The translations under genes were made by a program, and so were the position numbers. From Patescibacteria group bacterium (lineage in GTDB: Bacteria; Patescibacteriota; Minisyncoccia; RBG-13-40-8-A): a stretch of DNA of 44,174 nucleotides. The stretch spans positions 1 through 44,174 of the forward strand of contig JAHJST010000025.1 of the NCBI GenBank assembly GCA_018829905.1, given 5' to 3'. Under the pieces are notes generated by a model. The model did not search any database. It saw only the letters and a program-made list of their open reading frames with translations, and was not told the DNA's origin. Within the stretch, counting starts at the first letter, position 1. Every line of letters starts with the position of its first letter. Below are positions 16,116-44,174 of this stretch, one piece after another.

Positions 16116-16297
16116 AAAAATTTAATTAGATCTTTAGCAATTTTTCCTTTTACAACCTTGAAACCTTTTTTTTTCCTTCTTTGATTTCCTGATTGTTTTG
16201 AATTCAAATGATCCTGATTCTGCGGTCTACGCATCAGTTTTCCTTTTTTGGTTAATCTAAACCTTTTGGTTATTGATTTGTTGGTTTTTCCAGACAT
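16112..16297 (-). CDS. rpmI: 50S ribosomal protein L35
   Basis: A 61-aa, very basic ribosomal protein with the L35 signature TNKSITKRFRLTKKGKLMRR and HLNSKQSGNQRRKK. The start lies 28 nt inside the 3' end of infC and the stop overlaps rplT by 4 nt, so the three are translated from one mRNA. Confidence 0.95.
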   Translation of the reverse strand: MSGKTNKSITKRFRLTKKGKLMRRPQNQDHLNSKQSGNQRRKKKGFKVVKGKIAKDLIKFL

Positions 16298-16821
16298 ATT
16301 GTTATTGCTATTCCTCTTGGATTATTCTTTGTTTCTTCTTCTTTTTTAATATCAAGAGGAATTGTTTCAATAAAATTATCTAATTTTTCTTTAGCAATGT
16401 ATTTTCTACCTCTTTCTCTTCCTTTTAATCTCATTTCTATTCTAACTTTATGACCTAGTTTTAAAAATTTTTCTATTTGCTTAACTCTTGTTTCTAAATC
16501 ATGAGAAGATGTATTAAAACCAATTCTTATTCCCTTTAATTCAAACTTTTTCTGTTTAGCTTTCATTTTTCTTTGTTTTTTCTCTTCAGAATATTGATAT
16601 TTACCATAATCTGTAATCTTACAAACAGGTGGGTTTGCAGTAGGAGAAATTTCTACTAAATCCAATAATCTTTCTTTTGCTATGCTTAATGCCTTAGAAG
16701 TATCAATTATTCCTAAATTTTCTCCTTTTTCATCAATAACTCGCACCTGATCGATGCGAATCATTTCATTGATTCTTGTAAGTTTTTTCTTTTCCTGTTT
16801 TCTAAAAAATGTTTTTCTCAT
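16270..16821 (-). CDS. infC: translation initiation factor IF-3
   Basis: A 183-aa factor that keeps 30S and 50S subunits apart and proofreads initiation codons. The N-terminal domain has RINEMIRIDQVRVIDEKGEN, followed by a basic linker (KQRKMKAKQKKFELKGIR). The C-terminal domain has THDLETRVKQIEKFL-like and VRIEMRLKGRERGR segments. The ATG at 16821 is only two bases past the tmRNA 3' end at 16824. There is no room for a Shine-Dalgarno sequence that is not part of the tmRNA, so the message must be a readthrough of ssrA, a leaderless product of tmRNA processing, or start internally. The basic 15-residue N-terminal tail is normal for this group. Confidence 0.95.
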   Translation of the reverse strand: MRKTFFRKQEKKKLTRINEMIRIDQVRVIDEKGENLGIIDTSKALSIAKERLLDLVEISPTANPPVCKITDYGKYQYSEEKKQRKMKAKQKKFELKGIRIGFNTSSHDLETRVKQIEKFLKLGHKVRIEMRLKGRERGRKYIAKEKLDNFIETIPLDIKKEEETKNNPRGIAITICLEKPTNQ

Positions 16822-16823
16822 TG

Positions 16824-17171
16824 TGGAGACGGGGAGAATCGAACTCCCGTGTAAAAAAATTTTTAAAATAAATCTACAAGCATATTCTGTTTAATTAAAA
16901 CTATTTAAATAAAAAACAGAAAAAAACTTAAATAGTTTTGTCCAAAGAATTCAATATTTTAACCAGGACAAGTTAAAATATCTATCTCAAAAAACTATAA
17001 CATTCTTGATTGTGCATTGAGAATTACAATTAGAATGGCTGTATCAATTAAGCTACAGCAGGTGCAAAATTAAATTTGTTTGCAGTTGTTTTTTATTAGA
17101 TTTTTACGAGCTAACTAATATCCTCGACTTGCATATTTTAAAGAACTTTTCTATCGAAGCCTATCGTCCCC
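16824..17171 (-). ncRNA. ssrA: transfer-messenger RNA (tmRNA)
   Basis: A 348-nt RNA that rescues stalled ribosomes with SmpB. The 5' end GGGGACGATAGGCTTCGA (from 17171) pairs through GGGGACG with CGTCTCC at 16831-16825, followed by discriminator A. The 3' T-arm reads GGGAGTTCGATTCTCCC. CCA is not encoded (A then CAA). The tag reading frame runs from 17083 to 17048: resume codon GCA, peptide ANKFNFAPAVA, stop TAA. The Ala-rich hydrophobic end fits a proteolysis tag although it is PAVA rather than LAA. Pseudoknot-type pairings lie between the tag and the 3' domain. Its 5' end overlaps the smpB stop region by 11 nt, and infC starts 2 nt past its 3' end. Confidence 0.95.
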
Positions 17172-17634
17172 TAAATTCTCTTTGTTTTTCTATTTCAAAT
17201 TCTCTTTTTTTAATTTTTTGTCTTTTATCTATTTCTCTTTTTCCTTTTCCAATACCAAATTCTAGTTTAATTAAGTTCTTCTTAGTATATATCTTAATTG
17301 GTATTAATGTCAATCCTTTTTGTTTTGATTTACCAATCAAAGATTGAATTTCTTTTTTCCTTAACAAAAGCTTTCTTGACCTATATTTATCATAATCATC
17401 AGGTGTGTTTTTCTCTTGATATGGAGAAATTAAAGAATTAATTAAAAAAGCTTCTTGATCTTTAATTACAACATATGATCCTTTTAAACTAATGTGGCCG
17501 GCTTTGATTGCTTTAACCTCATGGCCAAAAAGCTTTAAACCGGCCTCATAAGTTTCTAAAATTTCATAATCATAAAGCGCTTTTCTATTTTCTGCTAGTT
17601 TTTTTGCCTTCTGTTGCATCTTCATGCCATTCAT
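17161..17634 (-). CDS. smpB: SsrA-binding protein SmpB
   Basis: The 157-aa protein partner of tmRNA in trans-translation. It has the SmpB core AENRKALYDYEILETYEAG, GHEVKAIKAGHISLKGSYV and LISPYQ, then a basic C-terminal tail (KGKREIDKRQKIKKREFEIE) that mimics codon-anticodon pairing in the A site. Three in-frame ATGs lie at the start (residues 1, 4, 6). All give an overlap with the upstream membrane gene (up to 50 nt), because the conserved LAENRKA itself lies in the overlap. The TAG stop (17163-17161) is inside the tmRNA gene, so RNase P maturation of a joint transcript would remove the stop from the smpB message. Confidence 0.95.
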   Translation of the reverse strand: MNGMKMQQKAKKLAENRKALYDYEILETYEAGLKLFGHEVKAIKAGHISLKGSYVVIKDQEAFLINSLISPYQEKNTPDDYDKYRSRKLLLRKKEIQSLIGKSKQKGLTLIPIKIYTKKNLIKLEFGIGKGKREIDKRQKIKKREFEIEKQREFRGR

Positions 17635-18287: not shown

Positions 18288-18548
18288 TTAAAATTTGTAA
18301 ACAGAATGATCTCCAACAGAATGAAGCCATATTGTATTTTTATTTTTCAATTCAAATATTATTCTATATTTCTGATCAATAGAAAAAGCCCATAAACCAC
18401 TTAATTTACCAGAAAGCTTATGAGTTTTTAGGCTCTTATCAAATGGATTTTTTCTAAAAATATGTTCTTTTTCTTTAATCTTTTCTTTTATTTTTTTTGG
18501 AAGCTTTTTGTATTTTCTTTCAAATTTAACCGAATAATATATTTTCAT
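18288..18548 (-). CDS. RelE/ParE-superfamily toxin
   Basis: An 86-aa type II toxin-like protein. It has the family layout FERKYKKLPKKIKEKIKEK, a middle KTHKLSGKLSGLWAFSID (LxGxxxxxWxfxid) and a C-terminal KYRIIFELKNKNTIWLHSVG with GDHSVYKF at the end. The terminal H-S-x-Y resembles YafQ/YoeB-type mRNA interferases more than ParE gyrase inhibitors. It follows its antitoxin by 3 nt. The stop is immediately followed by the GTG of vanZ. The module occupies a 619-bp segment between two copies of the vanZ 5' end. Confidence 0.85.
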   Translation of the reverse strand: MKIYYSVKFERKYKKLPKKIKEKIKEKEHIFRKNPFDKSLKTHKLSGKLSGLWAFSIDQKYRIIFELKNKNTIWLHSVGDHSVYKF

Positions 18549-18551
18549 AAA

Positions 18552-18767
18552 TTAATCTAAGTCTTTAAAAGATTTTAAAACTTTGCCTTTTCCTAAAACA
18601 ATTTCTCTTCTGCTTTCTTCTATTTCTTTTAATAATTTTCTTTCCATCCAATCTCTTAATAAACTTCTAAAGAATTCGCTTTTTGTAGCATATTCTCCAG
18701 TTTTTACATTTTTTTCAACAACCTTGTTTAATTCAGCAGGCAATGATATATTTACAATTTTTCTCAT
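18552..18767 (-). CDS. ribbon-helix-helix antitoxin
   Basis: A 71-aa protein whose N-terminus MRKIVNISLPAELNKVVEK is a CopG/ParD-type ribbon-helix-helix DNA-binding domain with TGEYATKSEFFRSLLRDW as the second helix. The C-terminal charged segment (LLKEIEESRREIVLGKGKVL) would wrap the toxin. It is first in the operon behind a strong promoter with an inverted repeat just downstream of the -10, as expected for autoregulation by the RHH antitoxin and toxin complex. Confidence 0.88.
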   Translation of the reverse strand: MRKIVNISLPAELNKVVEKNVKTGEYATKSEFFRSLLRDWMERKLLKEIEESRREIVLGKGKVLKSFKDLD

Positions 18768-18902: not shown

Positions 18903-19028
18903 TTAAGCAATTTTACGAAGTAAAAAATCTTGTTCTAATCCTGATTCTAAATTAGGAATTGATGAAAGAAGAAATATTATTCCTGCCCAGATAATTATTG
19001 GTAAATAAAATTTTAAAAATCTTTTCAT
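18903..19028 (-). pseudogene. truncated duplicate of the vanZ 5' end
   Basis: Bases 18906-19028 repeat 18164-18286 (vanZ start) with 8 differences in 123. It reads ATG through 41 sense codons (ending FLLRKIA) and then TAA at 18905-18903. Its ATG overlaps the stop of the HEPN gene (ATGA), which suggests that HEPN-vanZ was the original gene order before the TA module separated the copies. Confidence 0.88.
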
Positions 19029-19459
19029 AACAATTTTTTCTGTGGATGTGTTTCATGAATCTTTTTTCTAATAATATCAATAAATTTTATTGCTATTTTT
19101 ATAGATTGTTCTGTTTCATATTGGCTTATAAAGCTTATATCTTCATAAATAAACTTGTTTCTTTTTTTTCGCATATCATCAAAAAGCCCTATTAATTCTT
19201 TATGCTTTTTATCTAATTTGTTTTCTATAAAATCTATAATCGCCACATAATGACCAGGTAATGATCTTGGTCTTTTCCCAAAACTAAGCATTAAGGCCAA
19301 GCTTGCTTTAATCATGGCTTCATATGCTGTTTGATAACTTAATTCTTGATCAATTAATAAAACTTTTTTAGAAGAATTTATTTTCTTTTGTGCGCCTTCT
19401 AAAAATCTTTCTATCTGTTCAAAATTTATATCCTGTTCTTTAAATTTTTTATTATTCAT
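19025..19459 (-). CDS. HEPN-domain protein (MNT/HEPN pair, copy 1)
   Basis: A 144-aa all-helical HEPN protein. LSYQTAYEAMIKASLALMLS and GKRPRSLPGHYVAIIDFIE are typical of HEPN proteins paired with minimal nucleotidyltransferases. The catalytic region reads MRKKRNKFIYED: the R-N is present, but the usual histidine of the RX4-6H motif is replaced by Tyr, as also in the second copy at 29754. In HepT/MntA systems the HEPN partner is an RNase toxin that is AMPylated by the MNT. It overlaps the MNT gene by 8 nt. Confidence 0.8.
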   Translation of the reverse strand: MNNKKFKEQDINFEQIERFLEGAQKKINSSKKVLLIDQELSYQTAYEAMIKASLALMLSFGKRPRSLPGHYVAIIDFIENKLDKKHKELIGLFDDMRKKRNKFIYEDISFISQYETEQSIKIAIKFIDIIRKKIHETHPQKKLL

Positions 19460-19997
19460 CTTTTAAAATAATTTTATTTTTTAAAACATTCATTAAAAAT
19501 GGATCTTTGTTTTTTGTCTTTTCGTTAAATTCTTTTAATGAATAAATTATATAATTTATTTCTCTATCTAGTGTTTTCTCAATTTCCCTAATTTTATTAG
19601 AAAATTCTTCTATTTTAGGACTTCCTATAATCAATATATCTATGTCACTTAATTTATCTGTTTTTTCTAAAACAAAAGAACCGAATAGAAAAGCTTTTTT
19701 AATTTTAGAAAAACTTTCTACCAAATTCTTTAATTTTCCTTGAATTCCAGTAGTTTTAAAAATTATGCTTTTTAATTCATTGTATAGTGGATATTGTTTT
19801 TCTATTTTAAAATATCTTTGATTTCCACGATAATGACTTTTAACAATTCCTTTTTCTTCTAATTTATTTAAATCTCTTTGAAAAACACCTGGTTTTTTAT
19901 TTAAAAAACTAGCAATTTCTCTAAAATAATATTCCTTCTCTTGATTTGAATAAAGAAGGCCTAAAATTAACATTTGATTTTTAGTAAAACTAATCAT
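19452..19997 (-). CDS. winged-helix MNT nucleotidyltransferase (copy 1)
   Basis: A 181-aa two-domain protein. Residues ~1-70 form a winged helix (EYYFREIASFLNKKPGVFQR, then LEEKGIVKSHYRGNQRYF). Residues ~90-181 form a minimal nucleotidyltransferase with GSF and SDIDILIIG (the GSx9-10DxD signature). In MntA-like antitoxins this domain adds AMP to the HEPN toxin; the fused HTH would allow autoregulation. It has a strong promoter with a palindrome downstream. Confidence 0.85.
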   Translation of the reverse strand: MISFTKNQMLILGLLYSNQEKEYYFREIASFLNKKPGVFQRDLNKLEEKGIVKSHYRGNQRYFKIEKQYPLYNELKSIIFKTTGIQGKLKNLVESFSKIKKAFLFGSFVLEKTDKLSDIDILIIGSPKIEEFSNKIREIEKTLDREINYIIYSLKEFNEKTKNKDPFLMNVLKNKIILKDE

Positions 19998-20721: not shown

Positions 20722-23238
20722 TTAAAATAAAGTATCTTGCCCTCCATTTTTAATTCTTTTTTCATTTTCTTTAAAAACATTAATTTTACCAAATTCTCCA
20801 TCATATCCTGGTTGTATTGAAACTTTTCCTTTTCTAACCCTATCTATGCCATCTGCTATTTCTGGTAAACTAACAGAAGCTATTTTTTCCTTAGAAACAT
20901 TTAATAATATATTAAATTCTGTTTTAAAAGCTTTAATTAATGCCTTGTAATGAGTTTCTACTGTTTTTGTATTAGGACCAACATCTAAAGCATTCCCAAT
21001 TATTTCATCTAATGGAATTATATGTCTAAAAGGAATTGTATTTTTGTGCTTTTCTCCTAATTTTCTATCTGCTAACGCAAAAACTCTATTCATTACTCCG
21101 ATTGTTAATGGCTTTTTACACACAGGACATATATTGTTATGCTTGTCAGACTCTTCAGGACTTAATACTATATTACATTTTCTATGTCCATCCCAATGAT
21201 ATTTTCCTTCTTCTGGAAAAAACTCTAATGTTTCAATTAATTTTAATTCTTTTGACTCTCTTTTAATTGCCTGTTTAATTAGATTATATGATATTTTCTT
21301 TCCTTCAAAAATATTTGCTTCTCTACCGATCTTACGCGGACTGTGAGCATCTCCATTACTAATTAAAGTAATATTATCTAAAGAAGAATTGGCCCAGCTT
21401 GCTATAGGATCAGAACTTAATCCTGTTTCTATTGCAAAAATATCTTTTGAATATTCTTCAAAACATTCTTCTATTGAATCAAAGCCAGATTTAGAACCAA
21501 ATATACTAAACCATGGAGTATAACAATTATGAATTATAGCAAATTCTGCAGTATAAGAATTATCTTGTTTTACCTCTAAATTATATACATCACCCTTATA
21601 ACTACCTACTTCTATATCTCTAACAGGAATATAAATATATTTATTATCCATCCAACCATGTCTTCTTTTTAGTTTAGTGTTAAATTTTTTAAATTCAGGA
21701 GTTTTTAATAAATTAAAATCATCTTTTAAAAACGAAAGATTAGTCAAACAAAAAGAATTATAATTTGCAGTAATAATCCTATTCCCTATTTTAGACTTTT
21801 TACTATTAATTTTATCCATGTCTTGTTCTAAAATAGAAGGGATTATTCCCAATCTCAGTAAAATAATTTTCATTTGATTCATTAACGAACGAGATGAAGT
21901 TGCTCCAACATCACCACGCCACCATCCTATCAAAATTTCTTTTTGTTTTTCTAGTGGCAGGTCTAATATCCAACTAGGCAATTCTTTTGTAATTGCTGTT
22001 TTTTTATTAGAATCATTATAAAAATTATTTTTAAATATTTTTGATAAAATTTTTGAAAAATATATAATTTCTATGCTTTTAACTCCATCTCTACTATATT
22101 CCCTTGGCTCCAGATTAAAGCTTTTTTTCATTATTTTTTTTAGATCTTCAACATATTCTTCTTCGTTCTCATGAAAACAAAAAGAAATTGAATCTCGACT
22201 GTCGGTATATCCCTCTGACATATAATAACCTATCAATCTACAAAAATCTTTAGTAATTTCTATTTTATTTGGAATTAATTTTGCCCTTCCACCAAAACAA
22301 GAGATCTTGTTGTTGGTTATTTTAAATTCTTTTTTATTTAAAAAATCACTAAGTTTTATTTCTTTAATATCTTTAATTTTATCTAAAAATCTTGGGAATA
22401 TAAGAATATCACCTTTTTCAATATTTTTAGCTTGTATCCATTCTGGCTTATATTTTTTATATTCCTCATGCGTACATTTTCTATTGTCTTTGTACGCACA
22501 TATTGGCTTACAAACATTATGCGATACATTTAAACAGTCTTTATACGTCTTAATTGCATAGAATGGATGTTCAGAAGTGGTTTTTAATCCAAGTCTAAAA
22601 TAATATGGTCTAATATTATAAATCTTTCCATTATATTTTCTTTTATAAACCTCTTCTACTTTTCTCCACCTTCCTTTGTGTGTAAAAACTTTATCATTTT
22701 CAGAAACATTTTTAATTTTTTTCAATTTATTATTTACATGCAAATATGAATCGGGCAATAAACAATGAGCAGGAATAATCATACAATCTTTAGAAATTTT
22801 AAAAACAATTTTAGCTAACTCCTTAGCATCTAATCCTAATATTGGCCTACCATCTGATTTAATATTCCCTATCCAGCCTAAATGAGCATTTATTTTATCT
22901 ACAACATCAAACGAAGGAGCAAAAATTAAATTATGTATTTTTCTTACTTTACCTCCCTTGGAATAAATACTAGATATTTCTGCAGTTAAAATGAATCTTA
23001 AGTCTTTATCTATTCCATTCTTAATTTTAAATCTTTTCTTAATTTTATATAACCCTTTTTCAGCTGGTTCTAGTTTTGTTTTTAATTCTTTAAACCACAA
23101 AGGATGAGTAAAATCTCCTGTTCCTAAAATATCTATTCCTTTAATATTTGCCCATTTATCTAAATTTTCAACATCCATGTCTTTAGATGTTGCTCTTGAA
23201 TACTTAGAATGAATATGAAAATCAGCTATGTATTGCAT
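20722..23238 (-). CDS. Endonuclease Q-type PHP nuclease interrupted by an intein
   Basis: An 838-aa precursor. Removing the intein leaves 425 aa, the size of EndoQ. The N-terminus is a PHP domain (MQYIADFHIHSKYSRATSK, GTGDFTHPLW). Further marks are ILTAEISSIYSKGGKVRKIH, the spliced junction PAH-CYTPWFSIFGSKSGFDS and SNGDAHSPRKIGREAN. A Cys zinc region follows (C near KCNIVLSP, then CPVCKKPLTIGVMNRV). EndoQ nicks DNA 5' of uracil, hypoxanthine and other deaminated bases. The frame opens at 23256, but M at 23238 is the family-like start. It overlaps the upstream O-antigen ligase-like gene by 13 nt. These proteins are often misannotated as UvrD helicases; no helicase motifs are present. Confidence 0.85.
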   Translation of the reverse strand: MQYIADFHIHSKYSRATSKDMDVENLDKWANIKGIDILGTGDFTHPLWFKELKTKLEPAEKGLYKIKKRFKIKNGIDKDLRFILTAEISSIYSKGGKVRKIHNLIFAPSFDVVDKINAHLGWIGNIKSDGRPILGLDAKELAKIVFKISKDCMIIPAHCLLPDSYLHVNNKLKKIKNVSENDKVFTHKGRWRKVEEVYKRKYNGKIYNIRPYYFRLGLKTTSEHPFYAIKTYKDCLNVSHNVCKPICAYKDNRKCTHEEYKKYKPEWIQAKNIEKGDILIFPRFLDKIKDIKEIKLSDFLNKKEFKITNNKISCFGGRAKLIPNKIEITKDFCRLIGYYMSEGYTDSRDSISFCFHENEEEYVEDLKKIMKKSFNLEPREYSRDGVKSIEIIYFSKILSKIFKNNFYNDSNKKTAITKELPSWILDLPLEKQKEILIGWWRGDVGATSSRSLMNQMKIILLRLGIIPSILEQDMDKINSKKSKIGNRIITANYNSFCLTNLSFLKDDFNLLKTPEFKKFNTKLKRRHGWMDNKYIYIPVRDIEVGSYKGDVYNLEVKQDNSYTAEFAIIHNCYTPWFSIFGSKSGFDSIEECFEEYSKDIFAIETGLSSDPIASWANSSLDNITLISNGDAHSPRKIGREANIFEGKKISYNLIKQAIKRESKELKLIETLEFFPEEGKYHWDGHRKCNIVLSPEESDKHNNICPVCKKPLTIGVMNRVFALADRKLGEKHKNTIPFRHIIPLDEIIGNALDVGPNTKTVETHYKALIKAFKTEFNILLNVSKEKIASVSLPEIADGIDRVRKGKVSIQPGYDGEFGKINVFKENEKRIKNGGQDTLF
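21526..22764 (-). other. intein with LAGLIDADG-like endonuclease region in the EndoQ-like protein
   Basis: Residues 159-571 of the precursor (413 aa). The N-terminal splice junction is PAH|CLLPDSYLHV, with HINT block B as TTSEHPFYAI. The C-terminal blocks are GDVYNLEVKQDNSYTAEFAI then IHN|C, so Cys1, the terminal His-Asn and Cys+1 are all present and splicing should work. The centre holds two degenerate LAGLIDADG-type motifs, LIGYYMSEGYTD and EILIGWWRGDVGA, each with an acidic residue, so homing activity is possible. The insertion falls inside the conserved PAHxxTPWF motif of the PHP site. Confidence 0.9.
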
Positions 23239-24539
23239 AAACTTAAACCCAACCAAAACATTAATGCCCCAGAATTAAGCGTGTAAAAATAATGATCATT
23301 AAGACTAATAATTAAAAATCCTATTATTAAAAAAGCAAAACCAAGAGTTTTTGTTTTAATTAAAGTTTTTAAAACAAATATACCAATTAAAATTAAACCA
23401 ATAATTCCTAATTCTGTTGCTATTAATAAATATATATTATGCACTGGTTGATAAGCCCAATCAGGAATAGAATCATTATTTTTTAATTTTTCTAAGGTTG
23501 GTTCTATGCTTTTAATCATATTTACACCAGCTTTTAAATATACAGGATAATTTTGAGAATGAAAAACAAAATTTCCTATTCCTATCCCTATAACGGGCTT
23601 TTGTTTTATCATTTCAATGGCTATTTTATTATAGAAAAACCTTAAATCAACTGCTTCTTCATTTATTGATATTGTAAAAAATCTAGCTTTTAAATATGGA
23701 GATAGAATTAAAATAGATAATATTGAAATAATTAGAAAAACAAAAAACAAAGATATTAATTTTTTACTCAATTCTCTTCTCTCTTTATTATTGCCCATTT
23801 TTTTAATTACAAAAAATTTAATTAATAAATACAAAGGTACAAGAATTAAAAAAACTGTTAAGGATGTACGAGAAAATGTTAAAAACAAAGTAAAAATAAA
23901 AAGAGAAAAACCAATTAAATATATTTTCTTAAAATCAAATTTTAAAAAAAGAACTAAAAAACAAAAAATGCATAAAAGCATAAAACCAGCTAAAACATTT
24001 GGATGAGATAATGAACCATAAGCTCTTAATATTTTATCGTCATTAAATATAAAGCTAGCAACATTATATGCTCCTGGCTTTAAAACACCAGGTTCAATAA
24101 ATTTTAAACCCAAGCTAGATTGTTTAATAAATTGTAATATTCCTAAAACTGCTTGAAAAATTCCAGAGGAGAATATAATTAATAAAATATTCTTTAAATT
24201 TAAAAATTTAATATTTCTTACAATATATATGTATAAAAATGAATAAGATAATAATTTAATAAATCTAAAAACAGCTATTGATTGATTAGAAGAATAAAAA
24301 ATTGAAATAAAAGAAATAAATAAAAACAAAAACAAGAATATATCTTGTTTTTTAAATTTAATCCTTTTATTAATTATTGAAAATACAAATATACCAATTA
24401 AAATAATATCTGATAAATATAGAAAAAAATTATTCCATTCATTTGCTTGCCAATTAAATACATACCTTACTTGAAAAGGAATTAAGAAAATAAAAACATA
24501 AAAAAGAAATTTTTCTAATTTAATCATTAACTTAATCAT
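23226..24539 (-). CDS. O-antigen ligase/polymerase-like membrane protein
   Basis: A ~437-aa protein with about ten to twelve hydrophobic segments and the Wzy_C/WaaL pattern: a large loop (residues ~310-370) with VIGIGIGNFVFHSQNYP and, after it, PVHNIYLLIATELGIIGLI, where the conserved H-N-x-[YF] sits. Upstream, FLTFSRTSLTVFLILVPLYL carries the usual S-R. It probably joins or polymerises glycan on a lipid carrier. The frame opens at a TTG at 24563, but that start lies within the terminator stem-loop of the upstream unit, so ATG 24539 is preferred. Confidence 0.8.
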   Translation of the reverse strand: MIKLMIKLEKFLFYVFIFLIPFQVRYVFNWQANEWNNFFLYLSDIILIGIFVFSIINKRIKFKKQDIFLFLFLFISFISIFYSSNQSIAVFRFIKLLSYSFLYIYIVRNIKFLNLKNILLIIFSSGIFQAVLGILQFIKQSSLGLKFIEPGVLKPGAYNVASFIFNDDKILRAYGSLSHPNVLAGFMLLCIFCFLVLFLKFDFKKIYLIGFSLFIFTLFLTFSRTSLTVFLILVPLYLLIKFFVIKKMGNNKERRELSKKLISLFFVFLIISILSILILSPYLKARFFTISINEEAVDLRFFYNKIAIEMIKQKPVIGIGIGNFVFHSQNYPVYLKAGVNMIKSIEPTLEKLKNNDSIPDWAYQPVHNIYLLIATELGIIGLILIGIFVLKTLIKTKTLGFAFLIIGFLIISLNDHYFYTLNSGALMFWLGLSLCNT

Positions 24540-33460: not shown

Positions 33461-36400
33461 TTATTTAATAACTGCTTCTGATTGTGGTGTTTGTTCTGGT
33501 TCAATGACTGGTTTTTCAATTGGCTGTGGTTCTTCTATTGTTGGTTGTTCAACAACTGGCTTTAATAATTCATCAATTACGGGGATAGATTCCTCTGGAG
33601 CAATGTCGGCAGAACCATCTTTATCTGGGGTTGGTTCTTCAACAACTGGTTCTAGTACTGGGGTTGGGGTTGGTGTTGGTGTTGGTGTTGGTTCAATAAT
33701 TTCGGGTTCTAAAGGAGGGGTTTCTTCCTCTATTATACATGTGGAATCACAGCCGTCTCCGTCTATTTTATTGCCGTCATCACATGATTCTCCTGGTTGT
33801 ACAACACTATCTCCGCAAAAAGCTTCGACAACTCCGGCATTGTTATTATCGGATGCAATATCGGCATCTGATGCAATGTCGGCAGGAGAATCTTCCTCAT
33901 CTACTAATAAAATCCAGTAATCAAATTCTAGGGGTTCTGGGGTTACGTCGCTTAAGCGGATTGTAAATCCAGCTCCTTGTGCTTTTTCTGATATGTAGTA
34001 AGTTCTGCCTCCTGTGTCTGAGGTAAATGTAATGAATATTTTTGAATTTGTTTCAACTAGTTTATTCTTTACTCTGTATTCTATTTGTTGGGCTGGGAAT
34101 ATGTCTGAACCAACAATAGAATCTTTGTCTTTTTGTTTTTTAACTCTAAATTGTTCTACTGCTAGTTTAGTAATATTTGTTATTCCGTCTTTTATTGTTA
34201 TTCCTAGATTCTTTAAAGTGTTAATAATTTGGCTTACTATGTTTGTATCTAATGATGGAGGAAGAATAGAATGTTTAATTGTTATATTATCCTCTTTGCT
34301 TATTGATGTTCCATTCTCTTTTATTTTTATTAACTCTTTTTCATTTATACATGTTTTTCCTATACATAGTTTATTACCTATGTGTAAATCTTTGGATATT
34401 GATGCTGTGCCTGCGACTGTTAGTTTGTAGGTTGGGTTAGTTGTTCCTATGCCGACGTTATTTGAAGCGTTATCTACAAATAACGTACCACTATCTACAT
34501 TAAAATCACCTGCGACGGTAAGACCTCCTGCAAAGCTGGAACTTGCTGTTCCTGATACGGTTAAAACACCTGTTAATGCTGATGATGAGGCAAGAATTCC
34601 GCCTGCAACTTCTAACTTATATAGGGGTGAAACATTTCCGATGCCGACGTTGCCTGTGGAGTTGATTGTTATTGATTCAATATTTTGTGGTGCATTAATT
34701 ATATTCATTATTGAAAACATTTCGCTAAATGTTTGGGCCCATAGACCATGTAATTTTTCATATTCTATTGCTTTTTGATTATCAAATAATTCAGTAGTTT
34801 CTGTATGAACCGCTTCTGGTAGTATTGCTTCAACTTCCTGAGCAATCATACCTATCTGTGTTTCTTGGTTTTTATCTGGATCTGTCCAATTAAATGTTAC
34901 CCCTCTTAATTGAGATGCTTTTTCTAATGCACTTGTAACTGTTGTTATATTTGTTTTTAAACGTTCATCAGAAGATGAATGATATGCGCCAAAAACTCCA
35001 CCAACATATCCATCATCTTCAATCCAAAACACATCGCTTCCTGCGTGCTGAACATGCACAAAACTGTCCGCATCATTATTATCACTGTCCATATTTATGT
35101 ATAAATCATCTTTTGCATAATAATATCCATAAGTAGAATACCCTTGATAAGTAGTTGCAGTTATTGTTCCAGAAGCATTAAAAGCAGTTCTATCTATCGT
35201 TGCTTCTAAGAGCGCGTCTGCCAATGTTCCTATTGAAAAGAAGGATGTTGCACTGTCTCCTGTTAAGGCAGATCCTGCTTCAGCATCACCAGCAGCATAA
35301 TTACCAGTAGTATCTGTGCCCAAAGCAACTGAATTAGCAGCAATTGTTGTTGTAATTGCTGTTGTTCCTGAACCAGTAACATCTCCTGATAATGTAATTG
35401 TTTGATTTCCTGTAAGATATGAAGAATCATTGGTCCACATAGATATATTTCCTGTAGCTCCTGTTAATGCTCCTCCAGTAAGTATGGCTGTGCCATCTGT
35501 TAAGGTTCCTCCTCTAATTATGTCTGTAGCTGTTAATGAATCAGATATTGATGCACGTACAAAATCAAACTTAATACCTCCTGTAATATTACCTGATAAT
35601 TTAATATTACCTACAACATCTAATTTTTCTGCTGGCCCCGTCGTCCCGATGCCGACGTTGCCGCTCGTTCCATAAATCCCCATTCGCACCGTTCTTGCAC
35701 TACCATTCCAATTAGACAATTCTACATTCGTAACATTGGAGGAAGGATTAGAAAATCTCATTCCACCCCACGAAGAGGCAGGTGAACCTACACGAAAATC
35801 AGTTGCGGAGTGAGAAGTGTCATTTGAACCCATAGAAAATTTGAAAATAACATCATCATCAGTTGTCCCAGTACCCGCAACCTCAAGTTTTCCAGTCGGG
35901 TTCGTCGTCCCGATGCCGACGTTGCCTCTTTGTGTTCCGCCCCCAATAGTCATTGCGATACTTGAACCGCCCACATTTCCCGTAACAAAATTGATATTGC
36001 CGTAAGTGCCGCCACTGGCCGCATAATTATTTACGATATTCGTGTCGACATAATTACTGCCGAAACGAAATGGCCCCGCCCCGCCATTATTCTGCTCAAA
36101 CTCCGAAGTATATACCGCTGCTGTGGCTCGTATTATTCCGCTGCCACCTCCGTTGACTGGGACGGTTTGAAAGTTGCCCAGAACCAAATTCGTGCCCGTG
36201 GTTTCAGCCTTAAAGACGTTTAGCAAAGCCCCTGGACTCGTTGTCCCGATGCCGACGTTGCCTGATGTTGTTAATGTTCCCACTGTTAACCCAGCGTCGC
36301 CACTATCATCAGCCAGTCTAACCGCTAAAGTTGTTGCGCTCTTTTTTAATGCAGGAAAAGAAGAAGTCGTGCCACCAAATTTAAGCATTGAAAAATCAGT

Positions 36401-39400
36401 TTGTGCATCGTTATACAGCTGTATTACTCCATCAGTAGCACTATCTATTCTAAATCTATTACTTTTTTGCAATACTCCCCCAAAGGCCACGTCACTAGTA
36501 AAATAACCTGTTCCGACAACATATAAAGCTTTTGTCGGCCCTGTTGTCCCGATGCCTATATTTCCTTGAACATATAAATGAGATGAGATTGATGCTATTC
36601 CATCAAAACTAACACTTCCTGAGCTTACAATTGAACTTCTAAAGATGGCTGTTCCATTTACGTCTAATAAAGCAGCAGGAACGGTTGTCCCGATGCCGAC
36701 GTTGCCTTGAATTGCTAATCCGTCCGTTGGTCCTGCAGAAGCCGCATATCCTGAACCAATGACAGCATTTCCACTGACGGCTAACTTTGACCCAGGCGAA
36801 GCTGTCCCGATGCCGACGTTGTCGCTTATATATGCCGTCCCTAAAACATCAAGAGTGTTAGTTGGGTCGGTAGTGGCATTATCCGCTATAGTAATACCTG
36901 AAGCTCCGATAAGCATCTTTGTTTTTGAGGTTGAAACATTATATATAGCAAAACCACCATTAGCCGCTGCTGGTTTTCCTGCGACTAATTGCCAACTTTG
37001 ACCATTAGCCCCAGTATTAACTATCCCAATTCGTGAAGTTGATTGGTCTCCTGATGATACAGTTAATAATGACCCTGGCGCCGTCGTCCCGATGCCGACG
37101 TTGCCTCCTGATAATATAGTCATACGACTTGTTCCAGTAACAGTCGTATTATTGGCTGCTGTAAAAAATTGTATATTGGTAGCTGCATTCATTATAGAAG
37201 ACCCTCCACCAATTTGCACATAATTATCGCTTGTATCTGACACGGCATACATTAAACTAATTGGTTCTTCTGCGTTTGTATAATGATACATACCCAAACG
37301 ACCATATTTATCTGTGGTGTTTGTTCTTGTATTAGCTGCTGAATCAGCACCTAATACAATAGATAATCCACCATTTGCAACATCAAGTTTTCCAGTCGGA
37401 TTCGTCGTCCCGATGCCGACGTTGCCGCTTGGTTGTATTCTCATCCTTTCCACACCAGTATTTGAGGTAACTGGATTTGTAACAAATCGTATAGCACTTC
37501 CGCCATTACTACCATCTGTGTCCCCTATTACTGAAATATCTAATATACGAGTATAAGGTGCACCAGCAATTGTGTAAGAATCTAATGTGGTCTTAGCTGG
37601 ACTATTCCAAGTTTTAAGAGATACCCCTGTTCCAGAAATACCGAATGATAACTGACCAACTGGCGCCGTCGTCCCGATGCCGACGTTGCCTTGTATTGTA
37701 AATTGTCCTGATACGCTCGCTGTGCCATCAACGGCTAATTTAGCAGTCGGAAGGAGAGTCCCGATGCCGACGTTGCCGTTCATTACTGCTAACCCTGCTG
37801 TCCCTGGAGTAGCTGTTCCTATTCCAACATTTCCTCCACTTGTGATAGTCATTGCTAAAGAATTATTATTACCAAATTTCATATCAGTATTTTCAAAATT
37901 CCAAAATAAAGGTTGTTCTACTGAATTTAGTCCTATCCTAAGTCCATCTGAGGTAGTTTGCCCGGTCCCATCATTTGTAAAATATTGATAAGTAGTTGCC
38001 CCTGTTGCACCATTATGTAACCATAACGGAATTGCATTTACATTACTTGTTCCAACATCTACCTGAAGTTTAGATAATGAAGGATTAGTCGTCCCGATGC
38101 CGACGTTGCCTGATTTATCTATTGTCACTGCCGTAGTCAATGTCCCGCCAGTGTTAGCAGTTCGTAAGTAAAGTTTGCCACCCACATCCACGGAGGTATC
38201 CTGAAGTCCGCCAGCAATAGCCGCTGGTGTATAACGAGTAGTGCCGCTACTATAATGATTTTCAAAAACTAATTGTGACTGTATGTTAGTTGGAGCCCAC
38301 GCATTAGTAATACCAGAACTAATTACAGCAAGGGTATTAAACCCTGTATTGTCGTTTACATTTTTAAGAACATCAAATAATACTGTAGGACTAGTCGTCC
38401 CGATGCCGACGTTGCCGGCACTTGTTATTCTGACCTGTTCCGTTTGCGCCCCACCATTTGTGTTGGTGGTAAATGTTATCTTTGATGGAGGACGATTCCC
38501 TGATGTAGGTACCCCATCAACCGAAAGTAATATGCCCGCGGTAGCAAAAAAACCTGTGCCTCCATGTGCATTTCCTTGAAGTAGAAGGATTTGATCTCCA
38601 TCAGAAACAATAGAAGGAGAAGCATGTGTCCCACCCGATCTTACCCCATATATTACAGACCTTGCCCCTGCTCCAGATATAGCTAGACTACTTTCTACCG
38701 CATCTTTGGCTAAATGTAATTGATACCCCGGCCCCGTCGTCCCGATGCCGACGTTGCCGTTCATTACTGCCAGACCCGCTGTCCCTGGATTAGCAGTACC
38801 AATTCCAATATTTCCACTTCCAAATATTGTTATTGCATTGACAGGGGTTCCAGCCGTTTTTGTGCGGAAATACCAGTTACTAACGTCAGTGTTAAACGGG
38901 AAATCCACATATACTTGACCAGTTGTAGCGTTTACCCACGTATCTAGCCCGGAATCAGTACCACTTCTAAAGATTTTGAAATGCGGATTTCCACTCGATG
39001 GCTCTATGTGAAGATTAGCCGTCGGCCCCGTCGTCCCGATGCCGACGTTGCCTTGATTTTGTATATACAAGACCTCGCTGATACTGGCTGTGCCTGCTAC
39101 TTCCAATGTTGCCCCTATATCGGTTGTCCCGATGCCGACGTTGCCGCTACTTCTTTGAATCCTCATAGCCTCATAATATGAACCACCGTAATATCTATCT
39201 ATTGCTAAATCAGAATCTGGAGTGACAGAGTGTCTAAATCCCCAATAAGGACTAGTAGCATAATTAAACCTTAGAATTGGAGTTGTTCCTGGGGTATCTG
39301 ACCTATTAACGGTTGATAGGTTTAATAACGCTCCTGGGTCGCTGGTGCCTATACCTACCATTGAGTTTGATGCTACAACAAAGGTTGTGTCCATTATTCT

Positions 39401-42400
39401 GGTTTCTGCACTTATAGATGCTGTCCCATCAACGCTTAACTTATATCCAGGGCTGGTGTCTCCGATGCCGACGTTGCCTTGATTTGTTATTCTCATTTTC
39501 TCGGAAATATTAACTGCATCACGATATGTGGTGAAAAATGCTAATCCCGTAGTACCACCAAATGTATCATTTTCATCTACTGCGGTAATTTTTGCTCTAA
39601 CTCCAGCTACACCTGACGTCCAGGCACTAACATCATTTGAATAAAATTGTAATTGTCCTATTGTTTCTCCATCAGCCACAACAGTATTACTAGATTCAAG
39701 TCGTAAGATATTATTAGCGGAAGTACTTTTTATATTAAGAAGTGCCCCCGGCCCCGTCGTCCCGATGCCGACGTTGCCCGTTATATCATTCATATTTATA
39801 GTACCTACTCCAGAAATTATAGACAATGTATTGGCAGTATTTCCATAATTTATCTGCCCTTTTATTGTTCCTGCTGATTTAAATAAAATTCCCGGCACTC
39901 CACTTGTTGTTGTATCTAAAGTAATATATCCATAACCTGCGTCCCCTTTAAATTTTGCTACTCCAATACCGCTTACATGAGTTCCCAAAACATCTAATGT
40001 CGCCCCCGGCGTTGTCGTCCCGATGCCCACATAATTAGCACCCGCATCTACATAAAGGGTGCCGCTGTCTATGTTCATTCCTGATGCTACGGTTAGTTCG
40101 TCCCATAGGGTTAAAGCTCCTGAGATAGATGCTGTGCCATCAACGCTTAGTTTAGCAGTCGGAAGGATAGTCCCGATGCCGACGTTGCCGGTTCCTTTTA
40201 TAGTCATCACAACGTCACTGGTTGTCTTGTAAGCAGAATTGAAAAGCGAATGAAAATTAAAATTGGTCGAAGTACCATCAAACACCATTCCAATACCTCC
40301 GACGGGCGTACCATTTGCTCCAACTTCATTTCGCCATATAATACCCTTTGTCCCCGTTCCCAACCCGCCAATATTATGTAACGTAAGTATTTCTGCGTCA
40401 GTAGTAGTACCAATGTTAGTTTGGATGTGTAATTTCCCCTGAGGTCCCGTCGTCCCGATGCCGACGTTGCCGCCAGTGAAATAAGAATTACCGGACCCTG
40501 CCGATTGTACAGGTCCGGGTCTGAACTTTTCGTAGCCGGTTCCTGGATTATCTCTAACCGCTATCGCTCCGTCACTTTCAATAGCTAGTTGTGAAGCAAC
40601 CACTCCTCCCCAGTGAAAGCTGAGCCGCGGCGGTAGATAGGCACTTGTACCACCAAATTGGGCTTCACGTAATTGTATTGGAGCTGTAGCATAATTAGTA
40701 GCTACATTATCACTTTGAGCCAGGATAGAGCTGCCGAGTGCTTTTATATTACCATTTACATCCAACTTCGCCCCTGGAGACACAGTCCCGATGCCGACGT
40801 TGCCTTGATTTTGTATATACAAGACCTCGCTGATACTGGCTGTGCCTGCTACTTCCAATGTTGCCCCTATATCGGTTGTCCCGATGCCGACGTTGCCGTT
40901 CTGGTCCATCAACATACCAGTATTCAATGTGCCACCTGAATTATATGTTTGTAGCTGTAACTTACCTCCTTGTCCAACAACTGGATTAAAATAAGCCGAA
41001 ATTAATGCATGATTATAGTAACCATTAAAAGTAAGTGATTCTCCTTGGGTATAATCTTGTGCGCTTGGATTACTCAAAGTAACAAGATTTGCAATACCAA
41101 AAAAACCCTTATTGACTGTTAGAGGTGCCCCCGGCCCCGTTGTCCCGATGCCGACGTTGCCTGAGCTTACTATCACATTGTTTCTCGGGTTTAAAATTAT
41201 ATTATCAGTTCCAGCTTGGTGAAAATCTATAAGGAGACGACTTGTCCCATCCGAATCCTTAAAATTATATCCTGTATATGACCCTTGATTTCCTTGAAAT
41301 TCAAGTATTCCATTACTACTATTTCTACCTATTTTGTAGTAAATCCCACCACCCATACCTATTCTTAATTGATCGCTTGAAGTTGTTCCTACAATGTCCA
41401 GAGCACTTCCCGGTGCCGTCGTCCCGATGCCGACGTTGCCTTGTATTGTAAATTGTCCTGATACGCTGGCGGTGCCATCAACGCTTAGTTTAGCAGTCGG
41501 AAGGAGAGTCCCGATGCCGACGTTGCCAGTGCTTGCAATACTCATTAATTCGAGTCCAGTACCACTTAAAATAGATAATCTTTCAGAATCTTCGCCATCT
41601 TGATAATTAGACCTGATAGTAAATCTCTTGTCTGTCTCATTTCCTGAAGTAATATCAAAAGAAGCAGTAGCAGTAGAGGCAATACTTAATAAAGCAGTAG
41701 GCCCCGTCGTCCCGATGCCGACGTTGCCGAGTACATTGAAACCATATTCACCAGCACCAATATTCTCCAAAGTTAATGACGTATCTGTATACCCTGTATT
41801 TGTTAGTATTCTAAATTTCCTAGCTGCAGTAGCATCAATCAATAGTGGGTAAGTAGAATTTTGAGGGTCTTTGAGTGCCAATATATCATCACCATTAGAA
41901 GCAGCAGCCACTTCCAACTTCGCCCCTGGACTCGTTGTGCCGATGCCGACGTTGCCTTGTATTATAGTTTGTCCTGAGATACTTGCAGTGCCATCAACGC
42001 TTAGTTTAGCAGTCGGAAGGAGAGTCCCGATGCCGACGTTGCCGCTGTCTAAAAAGGTTACAAGTTCCGCTCCACCAGTGGTTGTTGTTCTATTATGACC
42101 AAAATGATAGCCGGCCCCCGTTTGATTGTTATCCGAATCAATATTAAAAAACATTTCATCCGCAGTATTGATAGTTGCATTGATAGATCCCGCCGTACCC
42201 AATGTCAAAACCGGAGAAAAATTAGCGGTACCTAAGAATGTTCCCTCACCGGCAACTACAAGTTTTGTCCCCGGACTCGTTGTCCCGATGCCGACGTTGC
42301 CGCTTCCTTCTAAATGCAACACCGGGCTTGAACTCCAAGTTCCTGCAGAAGTAAGTAAATAATAATCAAGTTTTCCAGAAGAAACACCAGCTGAATATTT

Positions 42401-44174
42401 TGTTCCCTGTAAATAAGCTGTGTTTAAACCATCAACATCAAAAAGTATAATCTTCTGTCCTGTGGTTGAATCTAATCTCATCGCTCCAACCGCAGAACCA
42501 CCTGTGTCTATATCTAATTTAGCCCCCGGTCCCGTCGTCCCGATGCCGACGTTGCCGGTTGATTGCTCAAGAACCATTACATTCTTTGCGTTTTGCTCGT
42601 CAAAAAAGTACAAATGCGTTGCATCATTCGCACGCTGTCCAATACTCCATCTCCATCCACTCGCACCTGTATTGAAATACAAATTAGCATCGCTTGTTGA
42701 GACAGAACGTGTAATTCCAATTCCACTTGAATTCTTCGCTACTTCAAGAGCCAACACTGGATTCGTCGTCCCGATGCCGACGTTGCCGCTTCCTAAAATT
42801 GTGACCAAATCCGTTGTGTAATTCTGAATTTTAAGAACAGTTTCAGTGGCGGCGAGTGCCATAATTGATGTTCCTGCTACATCCTTTTTTGCGCCTACAA
42901 TGCCAACTGCCTGCAATGTTGCTGTTGGAGAATTACTTCCAATTATTCCGAATAAATCCAATCCTTGAGCATTAGCGTCAGATGCTCCATATAATCTGTA
43001 TCCTCCAGCAGTTGAAGATATAATGGTATGGTAAGCAAAAGTAGTATCATTAGACGCACCGAACCATCCTGATAAGCCATTACTTACATCTGCGTCGGAG
43101 AGAATAAAATTTCCATCACGAACATCTAATTTTCCAGTCGGCGCCGTCGTCCCGATGCCGACGTTGCCTGTTTCTGTTATTCTAACCTTTTCACCATTAT
43201 CGGAACCATAAAAAGCAGACATACCATCATCTCTTACAATAAATCTTGTAGCCCCAGCAGAATTTGCTGCTTCAAGTGAATATGTAGCCGAGGTTGTTCC
43301 TGCACCTCTTATAGACAACCTACCATTTCCAACTCCCGCTGTTCCGACTCTAAGGTCACCGGTTATTATCCCAATACCTACAACATGAAGAGGTGAGCTT
43401 GGCACCGTCGTCCCGATGCCGACGTTGCCTTGACTATCTATTCTCATTTTCTCGGTTAAATTAGTAGCACTTCCTCCAAGGTTAGTATAGAAAACCATAT
43501 CCTGCCTATAATTAATACCTTGTCCAACAGATATAGTGCCTATTTTCCCAGCCTGCCAATTCTCCCCAGTATACCCTGCCATAAAACCAATCGCTGGACC
43601 GGAAACGACGTCCCCAGCAGCCGGTCCCGCTTGTAGATTTAATACCGTGTTTAAACCAGACGCTGTAGAACCTTTAATATGCAAATTATAGAGTGGCCCC
43701 GTCGTCCCGATGCCGACGTTGCCTTGATTTTGTATATACAAGACCTCGCTGATACTGGCTGTGCCTGCTACTTCCAATGTTGCCCCTATATCGGTTGTCC
43801 CGATGCCGACGTTGCCAGAAGTATTGATTGTCATAGCCAATACTCCATTAGCGCCTAATTGTAATTTGGAACCAATTCCACTAGATAAAATAGCTAAATC
43901 GGTAGACAACCCTCCACTAAATTCTTGATCAGCATTTGCAATTCTACCAATTATTGTCCCCCCGACAGACAATGCTATTTCCGCACGAGTTGCATGATTA
44001 ACGGTCAATAACTCGCCCGGTGCCGTCGTCCCGATGCCGACGTTGCCGCTTGTTTGTTCAATGACTACCTTTGGTGTAGCCGCACCTGCAAAAAACTCTG
44101 CACGACCGCTGTCTTTTAAAACAAACAAATTCAAAGTATTGGCTTCGTTATTAAACCTATATCCTGCCGCCGCA
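33461..44174 (-). CDS. giant modular surface/tail-fibre-like protein with S74 chaperone domain (5' end outside window)
   Basis: At least 3,570 codons; the frame stays open through the window edge (YRFNNEANTLN precedes the first in-window start), so the N-terminus is missing. Most of it is a mosaic of modules, each ending GNVGIGTTxPxxxLxVxG, a beta-rich fibre repeat. An S74 chaperone-of-endosialidase domain starts at HSSSDERLKTN (autocleavage Ser-Asp at 34972-34967) and includes GMIAQEVEAILPEAV. About 500 residues follow: more GNVGIG repeats, IGNKLCIGKTCI, a DUF4215-like CGDSVVQPGESCDDGN, PTPTPTPTPTP and a Glu/Pro-rich tail. It is probably a trimeric adhesin; there is no sortase motif or C-terminal membrane helix. 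Confidence 0.88.
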   Translation of the reverse strand, partial: AAAGYRFNNEANTLNLFVLKDSGRAEFFAGAATPKVVIEQTSGNVGIGTTAPGELLTVNHATRAEIALSVGGTIIGRIANADQEFSGGLSTDLAILSSGIGSKLQLGANGVLAMTINTSGNVGIGTTDIGATLEVAGTASISEVLYIQNQGNVGIGTTGPLYNLHIKGSTASGLNTVLNLQAGPAAGDVVSGPAIGFMAGYTGENWQAGKIGTISVGQGINYRQDMVFYTNLGGSATNLTEKMRIDSQGNVGIGTTVPSSPLHVVGIGIITGDLRVGTAGVGNGRLSIRGAGTTSATYSLEAANSAGATRFIVRDDGMSAFYGSDNGEKVRITETGNVGIGTTAPTGKLDVRDGNFILSDADVSNGLSGWFGASNDTTFAYHTIISSTAGGYRLYGASDANAQGLDLFGIIGSNSPTATLQAVGIVGAKKDVAGTSIMALAATETVLKIQNYTTDLVTILGSGNVGIGTTNPVLALEVAKNSSGIGITRSVSTSDANLYFNTGASGWRWSIGQRANDATHLYFFDEQNAKNVMVLEQSTGNVGIGTTGPGAKLDIDTGGSAVGAMRLDSTTGQKIILFDVDGLNTAYLQGTKYSAGVSSGKLDYYLLTSAGTWSSSPVLHLEGSGNVGIGTTSPGTKLVVAGEGTFLGTANFSPVLTLGTAGSINATINTADEMFFNIDSDNNQTGAGYHFGHNRTTTTGGAELVTFLDSGNVGIGTLLPTAKLSVDGTASISGQTIIQGNVGIGTTSPGAKLEVAAASNGDDILALKDPQNSTYPLLIDATAARKFRILTNTGYTDTSLTLENIGAGEYGFNVLGNVGIGTTGPTALLSIASTATASFDITSGNETDKRFTIRSNYQDGEDSERLSILSGTGLELMSIASTGNVGIGTLLPTAKLSVDGTASVSGQFTIQGNVGIGTTAPGSALDIVGTTSSDQLRIGMGGGIYYKIGRNSSNGILEFQGNQGSYTGYNFKDSDGTSRLLIDFHQAGTDNIILNPRNNVIVSSGNVGIGTTGPGAPLTVNKGFFGIANLVTLSNPSAQDYTQGESLTFNGYYNHALISAYFNPVVGQGGKLQLQTYNSGGTLNTGMLMDQNGNVGIGTTDIGATLEVAGTASISEVLYIQNQGNVGIGTVSPGAKLDVNGNIKALGSSILAQSDNVATNYATAPIQLREAQFGGTSAYLPPRLSFHWGGVVASQLAIESDGAIAVRDNPGTGYEKFRPGPVQSAGSGNSYFTGGNVGIGTTGPQGKLHIQTNIGTTTDAEILTLHNIGGLGTGTKGIIWRNEVGANGTPVGGIGMVFDGTSTNFNFHSLFNSAYKTTSDVVMTIKGTGNVGIGTILPTAKLSVDGTASISGALTLWDELTVASGMNIDSGTLYVDAGANYVGIGTTTPGATLDVLGTHVSGIGVAKFKGDAGYGYITLDTTTSGVPGILFKSAGTIKGQINYGNTANTLSIISGVGTINMNDITGNVGIGTTGPGALLNIKSTSANNILRLESSNTVVADGETIGQLQFYSNDVSAWTSGVAGVRAKITAVDENDTFGGTTGLAFFTTYRDAVNISEKMRITNQGNVGIGDTSPGYKLSVDGTASISAETRIMDTTFVVASNSMVGIGTSDPGALLNLSTVNRSDTPGTTPILRFNYATSPYWGFRHSVTPDSDLAIDRYYGGSYYEAMRIQRSSGNVGIGTTDIGATLEVAGTASISEVLYIQNQGNVGIGTTGPTANLHIEPSSGNPHFKIFRSGTDSGLDTWVNATTGQVYVDFPFNTDVSNWYFRTKTAGTPVNAITIFGSGNIGIGTANPGTAGLAVMNGNVGIGTTGPGYQLHLAKDAVESSLAISGAGARSVIYGVRSGGTHASPSIVSDGDQILLLQGNAHGGTGFFATAGILLSVDGVPTSGNRPPSKITFTTNTNGGAQTEQVRITSAGNVGIGTTSPTVLFDVLKNVNDNTGFNTLAVISSGITNAWAPTNIQSQLVFENHYSSGTTRYTPAAIAGGLQDTSVDVGGKLYLRTANTGGTLTTAVTIDKSGNVGIGTTNPSLSKLQVDVGTSNVNAIPLWLHNGATGATTYQYFTNDGTGQTTSDGLRIGLNSVEQPLFWNFENTDMKFGNNNSLAMTITSGGNVGIGTATPGTAGLAVMNGNVGIGTLLPTAKLAVDGTASVSGQFTIQGNVGIGTTAPVGQLSFGISGTGVSLKTWNSPAKTTLDSYTIAGAPYTRILDISVIGDTDGSNGGSAIRFVTNPVTSNTGVERMRIQPSGNVGIGTTNPTGKLDVANGGLSIVLGADSAANTRTNTTDKYGRLGMYHYTNAEEPISLMYAVSDTSDNYVQIGGGSSIMNAATNIQFFTAANNTTVTGTSRMTILSGGNVGIGTTAPGSLLTVSSGDQSTSRIGIVNTGANGQSWQLVAGKPAAANGGFAIYNVSTSKTKMLIGASGITIADNATTDPTNTLDVLGTAYISDNVGIGTASPGSKLAVSGNAVIGSGYAASAGPTDGLAIQGNVGIGTTVPAALLDVNGTAIFRSSIVSSGSVSFDGIASISSHLYVQGNIGIGTTGPTKALYVVGTGYFTSDVAFGGVLQKSNRFRIDSATDGVIQLYNDAQTDFSMLKFGGTTSSFPALKKSATTLAVRLADDSGDAGLTVGTLTTSGNVGIGTTSPGALLNVFKAETTGTNLVLGNFQTVPVNGGGSGIIRATAAVYTSEFEQNNGGAGPFRFGSNYVDTNIVNNYAASGGTYGNINFVTGNVGGSSIAMTIGGGTQRGNVGIGTTNPTGKLEVAGTGTTDDDVIFKFSMGSNDTSHSATDFRVGSPASSWGGMRFSNPSSNVTNVELSNWNGSARTVRMGIYGTSGNVGIGTTGPAEKLDVVGNIKLSGNITGGIKFDFVRASISDSLTATDIIRGGTLTDGTAILTGGALTGATGNISMWTNDSSYLTGNQTITLSGDVTGSGTTAITTTIAANSVALGTDTTGNYAAGDAEAGSALTGDSATSFFSIGTLADALLEATIDRTAFNASGTITATTYQGYSTYGYYYAKDDLYINMDSDNNDADSFVHVQHAGSDVFWIEDDGYVGGVFGAYHSSSDERLKTNITTVTSALEKASQLRGVTFNWTDPDKNQETQIGMIAQEVEAILPEAVHTETTELFDNQKAIEYEKLHGLWAQTFSEMFSIMNIINAPQNIESITINSTGNVGIGNVSPLYKLEVAGGILASSSALTGVLTVSGTASSSFAGGLTVAGDFNVDSGTLFVDNASNNVGIGTTNPTYKLTVAGTASISKDLHIGNKLCIGKTCINEKELIKIKENGTSISKEDNITIKHSILPPSLDTNIVSQIINTLKNLGITIKDGITNITKLAVEQFRVKKQKDKDSIVGSDIFPAQQIEYRVKNKLVETNSKIFITFTSDTGGRTYYISEKAQGAGFTIRLSDVTPEPLEFDYWILLVDEEDSPADIASDADIASDNNNAGVVEAFCGDSVVQPGESCDDGNKIDGDGCDSTCIIEEETPPLEPEIIEPTPTPTPTPTPVLEPVVEEPTPDKDGSADIAPEESIPVIDELLKPVVEQPTIEEPQPIEKPVIEPEQTPQSEAVIK
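39033..39145 (-). repeat. 113-bp exact repeat, copy 1 (others 40785-40897 and 43704-43816)
   Basis: Three copies, identical by eye, encode GTTDIGATLEVAGTASISEV and LYIQNQGNVGIGT. Each is bounded by the GNVGIGT 20-mer at both ends, so a whole module plus its borders was copied. Confidence 0.85.
40785..40897 (-). repeat. 113-bp exact repeat, copy 2
   Basis: Same module as 39033-39145, followed by a different downstream module (DQNGNVGIG side), showing module shuffling. Confidence 0.85.
43704..43816 (-). repeat. 113-bp exact repeat, copy 3
   Basis: Same module as 39033-39145, 2.8 kb from copy 2, with unrelated flanks on both sides outside the 20-mer borders. Confidence 0.85.

Follow-up and report, generated by a model that had tools for sequence, protein, structure and literature searches.

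In the genome of a Patescibacteria group bacterium (GCA_018829905.1; 641 kb, 27 contigs), the smpB gene ends inside the downstream ssrA gene, which encodes tmRNA. This raises the question whether the two genes form a built-in feedback loop, in which maturation of tmRNA removes the stop codon of the smpB message, or whether their overlap is a product of genome compaction. A related question is where the transcription of ssrA starts. The locus lies on contig JAHJST010000025.1, of which positions 1 to 44,174 were analysed and are referred to here as the window.

Anatomy and distribution of the smpB/ssrA overlap

The smpB gene (17161..17634, minus strand) is a 157-aa open reading frame. Its product was identified as SmpB by the PF01668 domain (E=7.8e-51) and by a complete, basic C-terminal tail of 22 aa (DKRQKIKKREFEIEKQREFRGR), whose length equals that found in non-overlapping relatives. 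The ssrA gene (16823..17171, minus strand, 3' end approximate) was recognised by ARAGORN, with the tag ANKFNFAPAVA, and by Rfam, where it matched the tmRNA model RF00023 over its full length (model positions 1-374, 120.8 bits). By reading, tmRNA has a 7-bp acceptor (GGGGACG/CGTCTCC), the discriminator base A at 16824 and no encoded CCA. The two genes share 11 nt (17161..17171, minus strand), the junction being ...GAA TTT A/GG GGA CGA TAG, with the slash at the tmRNA 5' end (17171). The smpB stop codon TAG is nt 9-11 of tmRNA, where the acceptor strand ends and the D-arm begins; it lies within the mature molecule, as in the overlap known from Carsonella. These ends were taken from the open reading frame list, ARAGORN, Rfam and the sequence itself, and the initial annotation had placed them correctly. 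The same 11-nt overlap is present in three other genera of the family, so it is not a sequencing oddity.

The whole smpB-ssrA-infC region is tightly packed. The smpB gene overlaps an upstream membrane-protein ORF by 50 nt (17585-17634), and infC (16270..16821, minus strand) overlaps rpmI by 28 nt (16270-16297). The ATG of infC stands 2 nt past the tmRNA discriminator base (16819-16824), and the infC message would be nearly leaderless (CA-AUG) after 3' maturation of tmRNA. Other features of the window, all recognised by reading, include: (i) small gene pairs resembling RelE-type toxin/antitoxin and HEPN/nucleotidyltransferase systems (18288-18767 and 19025-19997), (ii) a PHP-type ORF of 844 aa (20722-23256), seemingly interrupted by an intein (C...HN/C block) and (iii) a 3557-aa protein (33461-44134) with GNVGIGTT repeats and an SSDERLKTNI segment like that of tail-fibre chaperone (peptidase S74) domains.

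For the comparison, SmpB was located in members of the same class and in other relatives (Sungiibacteriota, Uhrbacteria, Kerfeldbacteria and Saccharibacteria), the flanking DNA was taken and the distance from the smpB stop to the tmRNA 5' end was measured with ARAGORN. Since many tmRNAs were missed by this program, loci without an ARAGORN hit were searched again with Rfam. In this way 36 loci of the class (e.g. L006, L008, L013 and L092) gained a tmRNA, and most of the calls in which ssrA had seemed not to be adjacent proved false; the ARAGORN-only overlap count of 28/114 was superseded by 30/149. The ssrA gene is co-directional with and downstream of smpB in 149 of 155 genomes of the class. 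The initial annotation had suggested looking for the overlap in related genomes, where it does recur: the smpB stop lies inside ssrA in 30 of the 149 linked genomes and in 19 of 67 families, with overlaps of 8 nt (17 genomes), 11 nt (4), 12, 18 and 21 nt (2 each) and 1, 25 and 35 nt (1 each). Within the source genome's family, the 11-nt form occurs in 4 of 6 genomes, representing four genera, while in the other two smpB and ssrA are 23 and 71 nt apart. None of the 26 linked pairs from other Patescibacteria classes overlaps (p=0.009 versus the source genome's own class).

Probable stop capture through genome compaction and the proposed feedback loop

The most frequent overlap lengths correspond to stop codons present at the 5' end of tmRNA itself. 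TGA occupies nt 6-8 in 60 of 113 tmRNAs, and a smpB frame that has lost its own stop therefore ends there. In the source genome's family, C stands in place of T6 and is matched by a G in the 3' strand (by reading); the frame thus continues to the TAG at nt 9-11. The register in which a stop is met soonest, giving the shortest extension, is used by 22 of the 30 overlaps (p=1.4e-5). Usually just the last 2-3 residues of SmpB are encoded within tmRNA, and the median tail length is 23 aa in overlap genomes versus 22 aa otherwise. Transfer RNAs likewise carry TAG at nt 8-10 (98/184). The base preceding the cut in overlap genomes is A in 14, C in 7, T in 6 and G in 1 (n=28); stop completion by polyadenylation, as in mitochondria, was rejected, as T is not enriched at this position (6/28).

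We consider it likely that the locus as a whole reflects an overlap driven by compaction, an ssrA promoter embedded in smpB (described below) and a nonstop by-product that is tolerated. In small Patescibacteria genomes, the reduction of intergenic space would have brought ssrA up to smpB, and the tmRNA 5' end would have offered a ready-made stop, i.e. TGA at nt 6-8 or, here, TAG at nt 9-11.

The main alternative is an autoregulatory loop established by selection, in which maturation of ssrA makes the smpB mRNA nonstop, nascent SmpB is tagged and destroyed, and the level of SmpB is thereby set against that of tmRNA. Cleavage between 17171 and 17172 would indeed remove the stop and leave one nucleotide of the last codon, and the source genome encodes the RNA and the protein of RNase P as well as ClpP. 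Its only match to PF05833 (RqcH-type) is below threshold and has four internal stops, with no full-length gene, and no protein of ArfB size was found, the two genes with an RF-1 domain both being of release-factor size; tmRNA-SmpB is therefore apparently the chief means of ribosome rescue. The occurrence of the overlap in 19 families, and its sharing by four genera of the source genome's family, also speak for the loop, an idea already present in PMC4131195. A separate observation concerns the release-factor gene that follows rpmE (L307, G000:C19:25706-26032): its open frame encodes just 252 aa, which suggests an RF1 that lacks the N-terminal domain.

Several controls bear on the choice between selection and compaction. 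Overlaps of the same kind between a coding sequence and a downstream tRNA gene were found in 12 of 77 pairs from the same class, and the smpB-ssrA rate (30/139 at gaps of up to 300 nt) does not differ significantly from this (p=0.37); at gaps of up to 20 nt the smpB-ssrA share is nominally higher (30/73 versus 12/44, p=0.16), the tRNA control being a small sample of limited power, most of which comes from four genomes, including three of the source genome's own family. Several genes upstream of the overlapped tRNAs are recognisable as full-length (by reading), among them FtsH-like, P-type-ATPase-like and RbfA-like ones. The overlap follows genome size, being present in 15/46 small, 11/66 middle and 4/37 large genomes, and the smpB-ssrA gap is correlated with size (rho=0.36, p=5.6e-6). 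On the SmpB tree the overlap changes state about 24 times at least (shuffled mean 27.7; 5 of 300 shuffles equally low).

These results fit compaction with stop capture, with which a later regulatory use would be compatible, and the overlap appears to be a by-product of shrinking genomes, not a proven feedback switch. The built-in loop that the initial annotation had put forward as a possibility finds no support in an arrangement that is about as frequent at tRNA genes, varies with genome size and has been gained and lost repeatedly. Moreover, most linked relatives lack the overlap, and ssrA probably has its own promoter, which would make the coupling of the two genes loose. A loop maintained by selection is therefore, in our view, unlikely. 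Little credence can also be given to a wider form of the idea, that the overlap and the embedded promoter are one selected module in which smpB is deliberately made nonstop and SmpB limited to the amount of tmRNA, with apparently no other rescue factor at hand.

Further coding sequences that stop inside downstream tRNA genes were noted at L268, L273, L269, L255 (in the source genome itself), L120, L241, L305 and L287, often with TAG at tRNA nt 8-10 or with its G as tRNA nt 1. Several messages may therefore turn nonstop on tRNA maturation. Such stops are common in this class, and RNase P may routinely create nonstop messages there.

A promoter-like site embedded in smpB

The initial annotation had not recognised a strong ssrA promoter within smpB. 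A pattern scan of the region gave, as its best sigma70-type match, a -35-like hexamer TTGACA (17308..17313, minus strand; Leu-Thr codons of smpB, residues 108-109) and a -10-like hexamer TATACT (17284..17289, minus strand; Tyr-Thr codons, residues 116-117). With its 18-nt spacer, the site TTGACA-18-TATACT (17313-17284) lies on the smpB strand, encodes LTLIPIKIYT and matches the consensus at 11 of 12 positions, within the 16-18 nt spacing of sigma70-type promoters, on the assumption that E. coli promoter rules apply to Patescibacteria. The total of promoter-like matches in the smpB stretch is not above that of shuffled sequences, so the scan is by itself no proof. No terminator-like site was found between smpB and ssrA by pattern scan. 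A scan for generic promoters, confined to the 120 nt directly upstream of ssrA, had shown no enrichment; it was later judged a false negative, because the -35 box is about 142 nt upstream and thus outside the scanned span.

The site is marked by codon choice across the class. For 147 codon columns in 146 linked class members, the base at the third position was set against the codon usage of those loci. Constraint within smpB is strongest at two third positions, namely G in TTG (139/146, z=16.4) and the T that closes TATAMT (135/146, z=13.6). In other classes with ssrA downstream, TTG is used in 21 of 26 loci (expected 5.2), whereas loci without ssrA downstream have it in 6 of 24 (expected 5.5), two of the six being later found linked. 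For L032 and L034, which had been classed as unlinked and have the full motif, a downstream ssrA was predicted, and tmRNA was then found there with Rfam.

At a threshold of 10 or more of 12 matches, the motif is present in 142 of 171 ssrA-linked genomes versus 1 of 36 unlinked ones (p=8e-21), the genomes being related and non-independent, so that p-values are to be read as upper claims. Both groups of classes show this separately: 119/141 linked versus 1/7 unlinked genomes in the source genome's own class, where the unlinked set is small, and 23/30 versus 0/29 in the others. Even the residue after Tyr follows the linkage (T, N or S in 149/171 linked versus 9/36 unlinked genomes). Among the overlap genomes tested, 25 of 28 have the motif and 3 lack it. 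The sole unlinked genome with a strong motif is L141, in which infC begins 427 nt past smpB; no tmRNA was recognised in the interval, which may hold a divergent one. In many relatives infC lies 3' of ssrA, and it was considered as the true client of the promoter; this was rejected, since 51 of 60 ssrA-linked loci without infC within 1.2 kb have the motif.

The hexamers might instead be a coding artefact, with no promoter involved, as the LT..P...Y residues are themselves conserved in SmpB, codon habits could do the rest and TATACT or TATAAT occurs in all gap groups of the class. A pure coding constraint had indeed been read from the Tyr-Thr codons alone, and was overturned by the per-codon usage tests and the unlinked controls. 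A third-position bias far above same-locus codon usage, its disappearance where ssrA is not downstream and the shift of the residue after Tyr make this explanation improbable. Still less can be said for an obligate joint transcript, with no ssrA promoter and all tmRNA derived from the smpB message: the in-line order in 149/155 genomes and the lack of a terminator-like site would suit it, but hexamers that bear the strongest synonymous constraint in smpB, and are lost where ssrA lies elsewhere, speak against it.

Synonymous constraint and linkage to ssrA thus make it most likely that transcription of ssrA begins independently, some 106 nt ahead of the gene, and that the initial annotation was wrong on this point. 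The position of the hexamers would place this start near 17277, with a leader of approx. 106 nt. A conserved site tied to ssrA linkage also suggests that the smpB message is not needed for making tmRNA.

RNase P trims pre-tmRNA at its 5' end (predicted here at 17171). According to the preferred explanation, a sigma70-type ssrA promoter contained in the LTxxPxxxY(T/N) codons, approx. 112-118 nt upstream of ssrA in overlap genomes, would yield most tmRNA as a short, RNase P-trimmed precursor, and not from the smpB message. The stop would be lost just in those smpB transcripts that run on into ssrA and are matured there, as the lack of a terminator-like site after smpB would permit. The derivation of a nonstop smpB message from the RNase P cut thus stands as a prediction for read-through transcripts, with RNase P and ClpP both encoded, but tmRNA could be made without that message. 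Part of SmpB would then be made from nonstop mRNA, on which ribosomes would need rescue and tagging would be possible; the tagged product would end in ...REF followed by AANKFNFAPAVA. Normal SmpB could still be made in an early round of translation, with ssrA not yet fully transcribed. The net effect would be damping, mild at most, and no switch. Promoter use, read-through, RNase P cleavage and SmpB tagging are here predicted from sequence, and nonstop SmpB production is probably a tolerated by-product.

In the literature searched, mostly open-access, no paper was found that deals with tmRNA in Patescibacteria or with a promoter of ssrA inside smpB. The embedded promoter is a more interesting result than the overlap. 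A probable ssrA promoter coincides with the codon positions under the strongest synonymous constraint in smpB, and the residue that follows Tyr shifts along with it. This provides a defined case, open to testing, of a promoter that shapes both codons and residues of an essential protein. The site also indicates where tmRNA transcription should be sought in bacteria that can hardly be cultured.

Comparison with known systems

In Carsonella ruddii, half of the strains have overlapping smpB and ssrA genes (Hudson, Lau and Williams 2014, PMC4131195, which credits Mao et al. 2009). According to that paper, tmRNA maturation is expected to yield nonstop smpB mRNA in Carsonella, feedback is suggested, and the overlap was found only in Carsonella among 2,031 genomes. 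It is now seen in 19 families of one class of Patescibacteria, a different phylum. Both cases have the smpB stop inside ssrA and the same expected effect of maturation; the nonstop consequence, already proposed for Carsonella, is plausible here, and the loop is not clearly favoured by the comparative evidence. The Carsonella protein, as described in the same paper, has no C-terminal tail and an essentially random extension, whereas the tail is complete here (median 23 aa in overlap genomes versus 22 aa otherwise). An embedded promoter is not reported in the consulted part of PMC4131195, in contrast to the promoter-like site in smpB found here. The survey in that paper also covers the same same-strand geometry, with an upstream stop inside a t(m)RNA gene, and gives 250 such overlaps with upstream coding sequences among 115,660 t(m)RNA genes (approx. 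0.2%); a looser, ORF-based count in this clade gave 12 of 164 distinct tRNA genes (7%).

Two other systems offer partial parallels. In E. coli, RNase III makes the arfA message nonstop (Garza-Sanchez et al. 2011, as cited in PMC4131195). In both cases, as a prediction for smpB, the message of a rescue factor becomes nonstop through RNA processing, although the nuclease and the factor are different. The truncated arfA product is the working factor, whereas in the case of smpB the protein itself would be tagged. In mitochondria, UAA codons are completed by polyadenylation. The lack of enrichment of T before the cut sets the overlaps described here apart from that mechanism. Excision of an RNA gene nevertheless trims the stop of the upstream message in the tRNA punctuation of animal mitochondria as well (e.g. 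PMC9674279). Finally, intragenic operon promoters likewise have their hexamers within an upstream coding sequence; unlike them, the site in smpB occupies fixed codon positions, is apparent across much of the phylum and is tied to the linkage with ssrA.
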